Source: Streptomyces sp. KMM 9044 (lineage in GTDB: Bacteria > Actinomycetota > Actinomycetes > Streptomycetales > Streptomycetaceae). From it: a stretch of DNA of 64,000 nt. The stretch is taken from NCBI RefSeq assembly GCF_024701375.2, contig NZ_CP113910.1, positions 1,240,001 to 1,304,000 of the forward strand. Reading direction: 5' to 3'. Positions 4,310 through 9,150 of the stretch are shown here, piece after piece (position 1 is the stretch's first letter; each line of letters begins with the position of its first letter). Both the position numbers and the translations under genes were made by a program. Under the pieces are notes generated by a model that was not told where the DNA came from, did not search any database, and was given only the letters and a program-made list of their open reading frames with translations.

Positions 4310-5812
4310 TCAGTGGCCGCCGGTGAGTTGTCCGGCGAGGCGTTGGTGCATGTCGGCGCTGGATTCGTTGAGGCCGACGATGGTGACCTTCTTGCCACGC
4401 TGGGCGTACTTGGTCTCGATGGCATCCAGGGCCGCGACGGAGGAGGCGTCCCAGACGTGGGTGCCCGACAGGTCGATCACCACGTCGTCCGGGTCGTCCT
4501 TGTAGTCGAACTGGTAGACGAGGTCGTTGGAGGAGGCGAAGAACAGTTCGCCGGTGACCGAGTAGACGACCTGCTTGCCGTCGGGGTCGACCACCCCGGA
4601 GACGTTGGCCAGGTGGGCCACCCGCTTGGCGAAGATGATCATCGCGGCGACGGTACCGACGACGACGCCGATGGCGAGGTTGTGGGTGGTCACCACGACG
4701 ACCACCGTGGTCGCCATGACGACGGTCTCGCCCAGCGGCATGCGCTTGAGTGTCCTGGGCTGGATGGAGTGCCAGTCGAAGGTGGCGACCGACACCATGA
4801 TCATGACGGCGACGAGGGCGGCCATGGGGATGTCGGAGACGACAGGGCCGAAGACGATGCACAGCACCATCAGGAACGCGCCCGCGAGGAAGGTGGACAG
4901 GCGGGTGCGGGCACCGGAGACCCGCACGTTGATCATCGTCTGGCCGATCATGGCGCAGCCGCCCATGCCGCCGAAGAACCCGGTGACGATGTTGGCGACA
5001 CCCTGACCGATCGATTCGCGCGTCTTGCCCGAGTGGGTGTCGGTGATGTCGTCGACCAGCTTGGCCGTCATCAGCGACTCCATCAGGCCCACCAGCGCCA
5101 TGGCGAAGGCGTAGGGGGCGATGGTGGTCAGGGTCTCCAGAGTGAAGGGGACGTCCGGCAGGCCCGGGACGGGCAGGGAGGACGGCAGCTCGCCCTGGTC
5201 GCCGACCGAGGGGACCGCGATACCGGCGGCGACGGTGATGACGGTCAGCACGACGATGGAGACCAGCGGCGCCGGGATCACCTTGGTGATCTTCGGGAAG
5301 AACACCATCAGGGCCAGACCGGCGACGATGAGCGGATAGACCGCCCAGGGGACGTCGCGCATCTCCGGCACCTGGGCCATGAAGATCAGAACGGCGAGCG
5401 CGTTGACGAAGCCGACCATCACCGAGCGGGGCACGAACCGCATCAGCTTCGCCACGCCGAGCGCGCCCAGGACCACCTGGAAGACACCGGCGAGGATGAC
5501 GGCGGCGATCAGGTGGCCGAGGCCGTAATCACGGTTGAGAGGGGCGATGACCAGGGCGATCGCGCCGGTGGCGGCGGAGATCATCGCCTTGCGGCCCCCC
5601 ACGACGGAGATGACGACCGCCATGGTGAACGAGGCGAACAGACCGACGCTGGGGTCGACACCGGCGATGATCGAGAAGGAGATGGCCTCCGGGATCAGGG
5701 CCAGGGCCACGACCAACCCGGCCAGCACCTCGGTGCGGAGGATCTTCGGGGAGGCGAGCCAGTCGGGCTTGGACATGCGCAGCTTGGGGGCCGCGGACAG
5801 CGGTGAGGACAT
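4310..5812 (-). CDS. SulP/SLC26-family inorganic anion transporter with STAS domain
   Basis: A 500-aa inner-membrane secondary transporter. The first ~400 residues are a series of hydrophobic helices (SulP transporter core). About 90 C-terminal residues form a cytosolic STAS domain with VVIDLSGTHVWDASS, the loop phosphorylated in anti-sigma antagonist relatives. Substrates in this family are sulfate, bicarbonate or dicarboxylates; the sequence alone does not decide. No carbonic anhydrase is fused or adjacent. The start is set at ATG 5812; an upstream ATG gives an arginine-rich extension typical of non-coding sequence. It is divergent from a MerR regulator about 400 bp away, a plausible controller. 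Confidence 0.9.
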   Translation of the reverse strand: MSSPLSAAPKLRMSKPDWLASPKILRTEVLAGLVVALALIPEAISFSIIAGVDPSVGLFASFTMAVVISVVGGRKAMISAATGAIALVIAPLNRDYGLGHLIAAVILAGVFQVVLGALGVAKLMRFVPRSVMVGFVNALAVLIFMAQVPEMRDVPWAVYPLIVAGLALMVFFPKITKVIPAPLVSIVVLTVITVAAGIAVPSVGDQGELPSSLPVPGLPDVPFTLETLTTIAPYAFAMALVGLMESLMTAKLVDDITDTHSGKTRESIGQGVANIVTGFFGGMGGCAMIGQTMINVRVSGARTRLSTFLAGAFLMVLCIVFGPVVSDIPMAALVAVMIMVSVATFDWHSIQPRTLKRMPLGETVVMATTVVVVVTTHNLAIGVVVGTVAAMIIFAKRVAHLANVSGVVDPDGKQVVYSVTGELFFASSNDLVYQFDYKDDPDDVVIDLSGTHVWDASSVAALDAIETKYAQRGKKVTIVGLNESSADMHQRLAGQLTGGH

Positions 5813-6213
5813 GCAACCGTTTCTGTTCGGGCGCACACGTCCATGCCGCTGGACGCGCGCGCGTCGTACCGATTCCACAAGGTGCGGACTCTCCGGCGGC
5901 CCGGCCGCCTTGGCGGGGCCGTGCCGGACAGGGCGGCAACCCTACGGTTGCCGGTCGGGCATCATTGCCCGGAAGTCTTCGGGTGCCGTCCGGGCCCGGT
6001 CGGGGCCCCGCTACGACGGTTGCGCTCCTGCCGGGCGCTGGACGCCGGGGACGAGCACAGAGGAAACTGTACCCCGACGTAAGGGGAGGGTGCGGTTTGT
6101 CTTCTTGTGAGAAGCAGGTAAACAGCCCCCGAGATCCTGTGACTGTTCTCACCCGGACTCGAGAACTTGACGGTTTCGCGAACAGGCGGAGATGTGAAGG
6201 AGAAGGTGCGGCG
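5813..6213. promoter_or_regulatory. Divergent SulP/MerR intergenic region with operator-like repeats
   Basis: This 401-base region has no gene. It contains an inverted repeat GTTCTC-N10-GAGAAC at 6145-6166, and a smaller one, CTTCT-TGTG-AGAAG, at 6101-6114. MerR-family activators bind dyads between -35 and -10 elements, so either repeat could be the operator. No 19-20 bp spaced promoter could be assigned with confidence. Confidence 0.45.
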
Positions 6214-6627
6214 ATGAGCGAGCGGCACATGCAGATCGGCGAGGTGGCCGAGCGGACCGGTCTGTCGCTGCGCACCATCCGGCACTACGAGGAAGTGGGC
6301 CTGGTCATTCCCTCGGCGCGCAGCAAGGGCGGCTTCCGGCTGTACGCGGAGGCCGACGTGGCGCGGCTGATGGTGATCCGCAGGATGAAGCCGCTGGACT
6401 TCTCCCTGGAGGAGATGCGGGACCTGCTGGAGATCACCGACCGGTTTGCGGACACCGACGACCGGCCCGCTGGCGAGGAGCTCGAGCGCCTGCGGGAGCG
6501 GCTGGACTCCTACCGCAAGGTGGCCGACGCACGCTGCGAGACCCTGCGGGCCCGGCTGGAGATGGCCGAGGACTTCGCCTCCGCCCTGCGCCGCCGCCTG
6601 CAGACGGATGCCCGTTCAAGCGCCTGA
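6214..6627 (+). CDS. MerR-family transcriptional regulator
   Basis: A 137-aa DNA-binding protein. The N-terminal winged helix-turn-helix reads MQIGEVAERTGLSLRTIRHY from about residue 6, and the RR/RLY wing motif follows (GGFRLYAEADV). The rest is the long dimerisation helix, with many E and R residues. There is no obvious C-terminal cysteine metal-binding loop, so it is not a classical mercury/copper sensor. The ATG at 6214 follows a GAAGGAGAAGG ribosome binding site. Divergent from the SulP transporter, which it may regulate. Confidence 0.92.
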   Translation: MSERHMQIGEVAERTGLSLRTIRHYEEVGLVIPSARSKGGFRLYAEADVARLMVIRRMKPLDFSLEEMRDLLEITDRFADTDDRPAGEELERLRERLDSYRKVADARCETLRARLEMAEDFASALRRRLQTDARSSA

Positions 6628-6723
6628 GCCGCTTCGGTCGTGGTCCGGGTCGAGGGGCGCGGTCCTCCATGGGCCGCGCCCCTCGACGCCGTCCGACCGT
6701 GCGACGGTGTTCGGTGTGCGACG

Positions 6724-7056
6724 GTGCACACCGTGGGGCAGTGCACACCGTGGGGCAGTGCACACCGTGGGGCAGTGCACACCGTGGGGCAGTGCACACC
6801 GTGGGGCAGTGCACACCGTGGGGCAGTGCACACCGTGGGGCAGTGCACACCGTGGGGCAGTGCACACCGTGGGGCAGTGCACACCGTGGGGCAGTGCACA
6901 CCGTGGGGCAGTGCACACCGTGGGGCAGTGCACACCGTGGGGCAGTGCACACCGTGGGGCAGTGCACACCGTGGGGCAGTGCACACCGTGGGGCAGTGCA
7001 CACCGTGGGGCAGTGCACGGCGTGGGGCAGTGCACGGCGTGGGGCAGTGCACGGCG
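6724..7056. repeat. 17-bp tandem repeat (minisatellite), 17 perfect copies plus variants
   Basis: The unit GTGCACACCGTGGGGCA is repeated head to tail 17 times without error from 6724 to 7012. Two variant copies follow in which ACACC becomes ACGGC (7013-7046), then a truncated copy. Because 17 is not a multiple of 3, each frame cycles through the same 17 codons. None of the six frames contains a stop, which produces long artificial open frames. Each unit contains the palindrome GTGCAC. It lies between the merR stop and a pseudogene, where no transcript is known. Confidence 0.97.
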
Positions 7057-7221
7057 GCGGATAGGAGGCGCTCCGTTGGGGCGCGTCCCCGACCGATCCG
7101 GCGCCGAGGGACGGGCGGGCGAGGACAACATGCAGGCTCGGTACAGCAGTTGCCCACCCAGGCCCCTGCCCCCGCATCATCGTCGGGATCCGACCGCCCA
7201 TCGCCTTCCGAGGAGACCGCG

Positions 7222-7859
7222 TTGACGACCGACCGCTTCCCGGACATCCACCGCGCCGGCACCGTCGTGATCGGCACGCGGCATGCCGGAGGACCCGATC
7301 ACCAGCAGTTGCTCGTCGACGCCGAAGCGCAGGCAGTGGACTGTGTTCCCTCTCCACACGGTCTCGATGCCGTGAGTCGGTTCGCGAGCACGGACGGCGA
7401 GACCGTGCTGTCGCTCGCGCAGTGGGAGAGCGCCCTGCCGTAGGACGCCTTCGTGCGTGACGGTGCCTGCACCGCGCCCTTGGCCGGTCCGCGCCCGGCT
7501 ACCGGCTGTACCACAGCCTTGCCGAGCGGGACGGAACCCACGTCCCGGGTTGCCTGATCACCGCCGTTTTCGACGTCGACGGACCCGAGCGGCAGCGCTC
7601 CTTCACCGATGCGGTGCTCGCCGCCCAGCCGGAGGAGGGCGGACATCCCGGCACGGTCTCAGTCCGCTTCCTGCACAGCACCGACGGCAGCCGCGTACTG
7701 CCGTACACGGAGTGGACCGGCGTCGAGGCGCACCAGGAGGCCACCGAGGCCGGTGACCACGACAAAGGGCACGAGATCTTCTCCGGCACGCCCGGAGTGC
7801 GCCTCACCCACGGCGGACGCCGGCATCTGTGCCACGCTCTGCGACTCACCGAGGGGTGA
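7222..7859 (+). pseudogene. Antibiotic biosynthesis monooxygenase-like (two ABM domains), broken
   Basis: A TTG at 7222 with an AGGAGA ribosome binding site begins a ferredoxin-like ABM-type protein (GTVVIGTRHAGGPDHQQLL, then ETVLSLAQWES). The frame meets an in-frame TAG at 7441, and from about 7500 the homologous sequence continues in another frame (YRLYHSLAERDGTHVPGCLI to the TGA at 7859). One nonsense codon and one frameshift therefore separate two tandem ABM-like halves. Intact relatives are small cofactor-independent monooxygenases or heme-degrading-like proteins. The ribosome binding site is intact, so inactivation looks fairly recent. Confidence 0.75.
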
Positions 7860-7907
7860 ACGGCCGGTCCCCACCGGGCACATCCAGGGCACACGCACCT
7901 GGAAAAC

Positions 7908-8039
7908 GTGGACGACTGGCTGGAACGGCTCGGCGGGCCGGACGGCCCCGGCCGTTATCGCCGGTACGCGCTCCTCAGCCTCGGCTACTTCACCGTGTTC
8001 GAGGTCGGACTGTGGGCACTGGGTGGCGCGGTCGGGTAG
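7908..8039 (+). CDS. Possible 43-aa single-pass membrane peptide or gene remnant
   Basis: A GTG-initiated frame of 43 codons with a polar N-terminal half (DDWLERLGG) and one hydrophobic stretch near residues 22-42 (LLSLGYFTVFEVGLWALGG). There is only a weak GGAAAA ribosome binding site. It sits among degraded genes, so it may be the head of a lost membrane protein. Confidence 0.25.
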   Translation: MDDWLERLGGPDGPGRYRRYALLSLGYFTVFEVGLWALGGAVG

Positions 8040-8228
8040 CAGTCGGGTACCGGTACGGCCACGGTGGTGTCCGTGGCCGCGCCGGCCTCGGCGTCCCGTT
8101 GTTCCCGCTCTGCCTCACCGGCACCCCGCGGCCGGTGAACACCCCGGCCGACGCACTGGAGGCCACCCGCTCACGGGAAGCCCGAAAACCCGGGGACGAT
8201 CCCGCCCCCACCGTCCGATACTCGGCGC

Positions 8229-8750
8229 ATGCGTACGCACATCCGGCCCCCCGCCCCCGACGAGTTGTCCGCCCTCCAGGACATCGAACGGGCCGCCGGC
8301 GCCCCCTTCCGCGCCCTGGGCATGCCGGAGATCGCCGACGACGAACCGCCCGCCCTCACCATCCTCGAGCGCCACCGGCGGGCGGGCCACTGCTGGGTCG
8401 CCGCCGACGAACGGGACCGGCCCGTCGCGTACCTGATCGCCGAGCCGGTGGACGACGCGTTGCATGTCGAACAGGTCTCGGTGCACCCGCGCGCCGCCCA
8501 CCGGGGCGTGGGCCGGTCCCTGATCGCCCACGCCGCCGGGCGGGCCCGCGCGCAGGGCCTGACCGCCCTGACCCTGACCACCTTCGCCGACGTCCCGTGG
8601 AACGCCCCGTACTACGCCCGCCTCGGCTTTTGGACGCTGGCCGAGACCGAGCTCACGCCCGGCCTGCGCCGGATCCGCGCCGAGGAGGGCGAGCACGGGC
8701 TCGACCGGTGGCCGCGCGTATGCATGTCCGCACTCGTCGGACAGCCGTGA
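8229..8750 (+). CDS. GNAT-family N-acetyltransferase
   Basis: A 173-aa acetyl-CoA-dependent acetyltransferase. The fold is recognisable from EQVSVHPRAAHRGVGRSL near residues 80-97 (beta4 and the R/Q-x-x-G-x-G/A pyrophosphate-binding loop) and the later NAPYYARLGFW motif. The substrate is unknown. The ATG at 8229 has almost no leader, so a leaderless transcript is possible. Neighbours are pseudogenes and offer no functional hint. Confidence 0.9.
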   Translation: MRTHIRPPAPDELSALQDIERAAGAPFRALGMPEIADDEPPALTILERHRRAGHCWVAADERDRPVAYLIAEPVDDALHVEQVSVHPRAAHRGVGRSLIAHAAGRARAQGLTALTLTTFADVPWNAPYYARLGFWTLAETELTPGLRRIRAEEGEHGLDRWPRVCMSALVGQP

Positions 8751-8799
8751 CTTCCCGCTCGGCCCTCTTGAACCCTCGGCCCTCCCCGTCCTCCCCGTC

Positions 8800-9150
8800 C
8801 TCCCCGTCGTACCGCTTCCGCGGTTCCACCTTGCGCACCTCTCCCGGGACCGTCGTGGGGAAGGAGTCCAGGATCTGGGGACGGCTCGGGATCCTGTAGT
8901 GGGCCGGCCGGTGCAGAAGGCACGCAGGTCCTCCGGGGCGACCAGGTCGCGGGGGTCCCCGGAAAGTCCTCCTCGCGGTACCCGGCGTCGGATCCCGCCG
9001 CCGTGGCCTCGCGCAGCCCGATGCGGCGGATCTTGCCGGAAACGGTCTTGGGCAGGCCCCCGAACTCCAGCCGGCGGATCCGCTTGTAGGGGGCGAGTGC
9101 CTTGCGGGAGTGTCCGAAGAGTTCCCTCGCGGTGTCCGGGTCTTGCCGGG
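8800..9150 (-). pseudogene. Two fused C-terminal remnants of AMP-forming acyl-CoA synthetases
   Basis: Read on the minus strand from 9150, the first remnant (to about 8957) contains KALAPYKRIRRLEFGGLPKT followed by VSGKIRR, the C-terminal subdomain of an acetyl/acyl-CoA synthetase with its catalytic lysine motif. Directly after it a second tail begins (VAPEDLRAFC near 8950), shifts frame, and ends as a FadD-like core (ILDSFPTTVPGEVRKVE) near 8800. In the second tail the catalytic GK is GE. No N-terminal AMP-binding domain is present. Both pieces are non-functional. Confidence 0.7.

Follow-up and report, generated by a model that had tools for sequence, protein, structure and literature searches.

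The locus at 6724-7056 of the window (the whole 64,000-nucleotide stretch of Streptomyces sp. KMM 9044 that was analysed) raises the question of whether a tandem repeat of perfect 17-bp units, with the palindrome GTGCAC in the unit, is there because it does something, or whether it is simply a young minisatellite. We observed that TRF reported a single array at 6724-7052, with a period of 17, 19.4 copies, 99% matches and a score of 630. When the units were read one by one, 17 identical copies of GTGCACACCGTGGGGCA (6724-7012, plus strand) were followed by two variant copies of GTGCACGGCGTGGGGCA (7013-7046, plus strand), and then by a partial terminal unit of 10 nt (7047-7056, plus strand). The copy count and the coordinates given by the first-pass annotation were thus correct. 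The central units of the array were identical, while the units at the right edge differed. Minisatellites are made of head-to-tail units of 10-100 bp in at least four copies, and the array (17 bp x 19.4) is of this description. A CRISPR was ruled out, as the units abut and there are no unique spacers between the repeats.

To the right of 7056 the 17-bp register ends. On the left, GTGCGACGG is found at 6699 and again at 6716, and the sequence 6699-6723 (plus strand) is a possible diverged extension of the register. The identity at a lag of 17 in this flank was 10/17 at 6692 and 9/17 at 6709 (per-place chance 1% and 3.5%, respectively). However, a place inside a hairpin (6658) also scored 10, and the case for a continuation to the left is therefore weak.

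The array is non-coding and is flanked by a MerR gene on the left and a pseudogene on the right, as had been proposed. The MerR-family regulator gene (6214-6627, plus strand; Pfam MerR_1 4.7e-18) is divergent from a gene for a SulP-family anion transporter (4310-5812, minus strand; Pfam Sulfate_transp 4e-47), the start of which was taken from a crude gene caller. Between the MerR stop codon and the array, folding revealed a hairpin with a 17-bp stem (6649-6687). This hairpin is terminator-like but has no T tract, so a simple terminator scan omits it; when six relatives were folded, comparable hairpins were clearest in G340, G007, G153 and G097. To the right of the array is a pseudogene for an antibiotic-biosynthesis-monooxygenase-like (ABM) protein (7222-7859, plus strand), which, in comparison to intact relatives (P0001 and P0002 among them), is interrupted by a stop codon in frame at 7441-7443 and shifts frame near 7492. 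Across the whole region downstream of the SulP-MerR pair (window 6628-7905), the gene content varies among the relatives compared.

We then estimated how common such arrays are. The first-pass annotation had considered the array unusual for a Streptomyces chromosome. In a sample of the same genome (81 stretches, 1.664 of 7.43 Mb, window included), TRF found 812 arrays with a score of at least 40 after overlaps were merged. Of these, 23 had a period of at least 10 and at least four copies, the window's array being one of them. Fourteen of the 23 overlapped predicted genes by less than 30%, although non-coding arrays are overcounted in the sampled stretches since the gene caller was a crude codon model (77% of bases called coding). 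Among the 40 best-scoring arrays of the sample, the window's array was sixth, and no other array with a unit of 10-50 bp and 99% matches or more was as long. Most of the short-unit arrays sampled in this genome are shorter and less perfect, but two others, of 14 bp x 7.1 and 10 bp x 8.4, are also perfect. Long arrays are also present within predicted genes of the same genome (L209:3999-4314, 12 bp x 26, and L251:5678-5917, 6 bp x 40), and CGGCTT is repeated 22-24 times at two separate places, again in predicted genes (L213:17975-18116 and L212:17703-17832).

Published counts are in the same direction. A survey of bacterial minisatellites and VNTR loci, the short-unit 'satellites', counts arrays in which a unit of 10-200 nt is repeated in tandem four times or more, a class that includes the present array, and lists 38 arrays in S. 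coelicolor (4.2 per Mb, 21.1% with units over 30 nt; PMC6749651). Three genome papers give between 1,022 and 2,194 TRF minisatellites per Streptomyces genome (PMC7272546, PMC5567329, PMC9195005). With 23 comparable arrays in 1.66 Mb and these survey counts, rarity in Streptomyces was not supported.

The sample also bears on whether the array could be an artefact of assembly, its true copy number being different or having been inflated by the assembler. The array is located inside a 7.3-Mb contig, its right-edge variants are ordered, and similar arrays exist elsewhere in the genome. Assemblies often give an incorrect number of copies when a repeat approaches the read length, which speaks for a miscount; an artefact might alter the count, but it would hardly create the array. 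We consider this explanation very unlikely.

The array is crossed by open reading frames of at least 60 aa in all six frames, and both this openness and the GTGCAC palindrome had been put forward as significant. However, 68% of the 17-mers drawn from the window were stop-free in six frames once repeated, and 32% of them contained a 6-bp palindrome. As so many of the window's 17-mers behave alike, the two features are evidence of nothing. We also evaluated the array as a source of RNA or peptide. The reading frames that span it would allow a functional repetitive RNA or peptide to be made, but each change in copy number shifts the frame, the unit being 17. In two protein searches over the array (7996 and 7991 candidates scored), 5 matches and 1 match were obtained; all of them aligned to the right-hand flank, and none was a relative of a repeat peptide or a reading frame over the array from another strain. 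Six units folded as RNA showed no extra stability (-45.7 against a shuffle mean of -52.9 on the plus strand, and -47.8 against -48.7 on the minus strand), no canonical G-quadruplex motif was seen in the array, and no Rfam match overlapped it. We judge that such an RNA or peptide is exceedingly improbable. The sole Rfam match over 5000-9000, at E up to 1, was a sub-threshold SECIS_2 at 7916-7964, which was taken as chance.

The distribution of the unit was examined next. In its own genome, two exact tandem units were found only at the 6724-7056 array. The first-pass annotation had proposed a search for the GTGCAC unit across Streptomyces genomes; a 26-mer of the array, with up to three mismatches allowed, was found in none of 198 other genomes of the genus. 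At the same stringency the array was missing from all seven close locus relatives (G340, G366, G007, G153, G099, G097 and G305), of which G340, G305 and G366 are numbered outside the 198-genome set. The genus searches covered 199, 392 and 199 genomes drawn from a larger group, with one genome per species. An exact 34-mer had no match in a species-level genome collection, from which near-identical records were possibly omitted, and an exact 26-mer had none in viral contigs. Among the open-licence papers listed, titles and abstract openings did not describe the 17-bp array.

When we examined the sequence immediately right of the array, we observed that the array abuts what is left of a minus-strand gene, a relic of its 5' end (7051-7139, minus strand; blastn 80%, 91 columns, E 8.5e-18). 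Against the intact gene of G097 (taken as S. regalis), the score of this relic was reached by 0 of 2000 shuffles. In G097 the gene encodes a 255-aa protein for which Pfam gave no match up to E 1, and this gene and MerR are convergent and about 1.6 kb apart. At E <= 1e-20 the gene was found in 5 of 199 genomes of the genus, and in four of these five holders (G097, G153, G099 and G030) it is intact, convergent with MerR and 0.15 to 1.8 kb from it. The corresponding loci are L091 (gene at 7536-8303, minus strand), L088, L090 and L097. In G007 the gene is broken and is separated from MerR by about 0.9 kb, whereas G305 has two MerR genes and, about 6.7 kb from one of them, an intact copy. At E 1e-5, the search gave no match in the genome under study, in G340 or in G366 (86% complete), and the first two have no intact copy. 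Both genes to the right of the array are thus broken, this one and the ABM-like pseudogene.

The spacer that follows MerR in G340 matched the next part of the 255-aa gene (E 1e-6). With BLAST-like scoring, the match scored 41, and the best of 2000 shuffles 40 (0 of 2000 shuffles reached the score). Two further tests were less clear: with looser gaps the score was 36.5, below the highest shuffle score of 39, and in translated form the score was reached by 48 of 2000 shuffles, though by none of 102 control pieces taken from this locus. The left flank of the array in the window (6690-6723) gave no significant match to the gene, as 1560 of 2000 shuffles reached its score. Since the 7051-7139 relic and the G340 spacer match parts of the 255-aa gene, we infer that the array sits within a dead gene, roughly at its former codons 30-50.

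These results bear on the possibility, raised by the first-pass annotation, that the array is a multi-site platform for protein binding. As a lineage-specific platform or sponge, in which GTGCAC or the whole unit is recognised, it could titrate a protein or, by forming a complex with it, affect MerR or the chromosome. The 17 perfect sites, each of them containing a palindrome, fit such a role, and selection would also keep the sequence perfect. However, single units with up to two mismatches were not enriched elsewhere in the genome (8 matches outside the array and 10 for a reversed control), so there was no sign of a dispersed operator family. The SulP-MerR promoter region likewise had no site beyond chance, its best unit-like site having 5 mismatches, which 39 of 200 shuffles equalled or bettered. 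A 6-bp palindrome is, as mentioned above, commonplace in this window, the array is missing from the relatives searched, and the genes on its right are broken. A binding platform is very unlikely, and this proposal could not be upheld.

A role in replication or segregation had also been suggested, and the array could be a remnant of such an element or of one for transfer, for example the iterons of an integrated plasmid. Iterons are direct repeats typically of about 17-22 bp, so the unit length is typical. The sequence right of the array differs among the relatives compared, which points to turnover at this site and would suit an integrated element. However, relics of chromosomal genes explain this right-hand sequence. 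When 72,556 plasmid records were searched at E 1e-5 with a low-complexity filter, the segment 6600-7250 had no match, and the viral contigs contained no exact 26-mer. Pfam assigned no replication family to any of six proteins between 3408 and 12382, two of which had no Pfam match at all. A remnant of this kind is most improbable. Nothing points to a function of the array, and its interpretation as a binding platform or as a replication or segregation element is unsupported.

To assess its age, we turned to G340 (taken as Streptomyces sp. NBRC 110035), the nearest relative found. It was the best of 391 other genomes by MerR-region DNA, with 95% identity over 485 bp. The alignment of G340 with the window runs through SulP-MerR as far as about 6718 and starts again at 7905; the points of G340 that match window 6694 and 7905 are separated by about 5.9 kb of other sequence. 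The G340 spacer contains GGCGTGGGG and then, 23 nt on, GTGCACGGCGG, and has no tandem copies. The GGC of the two variant units is common to the partial terminal unit and to G340, and this indicates that ACC is the derived form, which would have spread through the array, and that GGC is older.

The aligned spacer differed from G340 at 9 of 87 bases, or about 5.6% per lineage. In contrast, the identical units had no substitution in 289 bp, for which the probability would be about 1e-7 if they were as old as the split, unhomogenised and evolving at the spacer rate; the 95% upper limit is about 1% divergence per lineage. The divergence to G340 is however uneven between genes, being 11.7% at fourfold sites for SulP, 2.7% for MerR and 1.2% for a LuxR-like gene. 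At the MerR rate the chance of zero substitutions in 289 bp is 0.02, and at the rate of the LuxR-like gene it is 0.18. The dating is therefore rough and does not firmly place the array after the split. The units look recently expanded or homogenised, as the first-pass annotation had stated, and how recently depends on the rate. The G340 spacer may instead be an older array that has contracted, which counts against a young array. Two other perfect arrays of the genome were likewise missing from G340, and the birth of lineage-specific arrays may thus be general in this genome.

Of the options that had been listed for the array, a slippage locus was the best explanation, given the uniform centre, the right-edge variants, the incomplete last unit and the array-free G340. 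The slipped-strand model predicts identical central units, differing edge units and an incomplete terminal unit (PMC3389668; for the terminal unit also PMC3599147), and the 10-nt partial unit at 7047-7056 is such a terminal unit. The sequence of events would begin with the decay of the MerR-convergent gene in the lineage common with G340, leaving relics beyond the MerR hairpin, and this step is supported by the comparison. A small deletion in this lineage could then have set the 9-mers GCCGTGCAC and GCCGAACAC (minus strand), alike at 7 of 9 positions, at a distance of 17 bp. The two would have undergone slipped-strand mispairing or unequal recombination, which produced the first duplication. 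This precursor is inferred; a single-copy ancestor with the 9-mers at that distance was found in no genome, and in G340 the two parts are separated by 21 additional bases. To judge from the pattern of the units, the tract may then have grown by further slippage, the ACC copy coming to occupy its left and middle portions and the older GGC persisting at the right edge. Copy number would then be expected to vary between strains, with the neighbouring genes unaffected.

According to these two papers, the slipped-strand model was proposed from a fish mitochondrial genome, which sets it apart from the present case; the likeness lies in the incomplete terminal unit, which is seen here, and in the putative short similar sequences at the unit distance. 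The perfect tandem repeats of Borgs are also recent and often flanked by partial repeats, and an intergenic one is absent from a close relative (PMC9879509). Between 14 and 38% of the unit lengths of their intergenic repeats are multiples of three. The present array differs in being on a bacterial chromosome with a GC-rich unit, whereas those of Borgs are archaeal, extrachromosomal and A-enriched (PMC9879509).

We also considered the spacer after MerR as a hot spot for arrays. In all 80 named Streptomyces loci, 6 arrays (5 loci) were found after MerR in 27.1 kb and 23 in 148.7 kb of other non-coding sequence, as delimited by the crude codon-model gene caller (0.22 and 0.15 per kb). The one-sided binomial P was 0.28, and the idea was dropped. 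The unrelated arrays seen after MerR in other species (L140, L154, L157, L159 and L176) have units of 10, 12, 14, 15 and 17 bp; that of L157 (S. lycii) shares the period of 17 bp with the present array but not the unit, to which it is unrelated.

Together, these observations have led us to conclude that the 6724-7056 array is a real, well-preserved and probably young minisatellite of the ordinary kind. From the comparisons made here, it is very likely a lineage-specific one without a selected function. It could, with only a slim chance, have been co-opted in this lineage as a homogeneous multi-site binding or chromosome-organising element grown inside a dead gene; if this were true, a functional repeat would have arisen from gene decay. 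As a young minisatellite, it illustrates fairly cleanly a bacterial array soon after birth: one can still see the decayed gene, the spacer without an array in a relative, the variants at the edge and the last, incomplete unit. The array would be usable as a strain marker if its copy number varies. It also cautions against inferring function from perfect repeats, palindromes and six-frame openness in GC-rich DNA.
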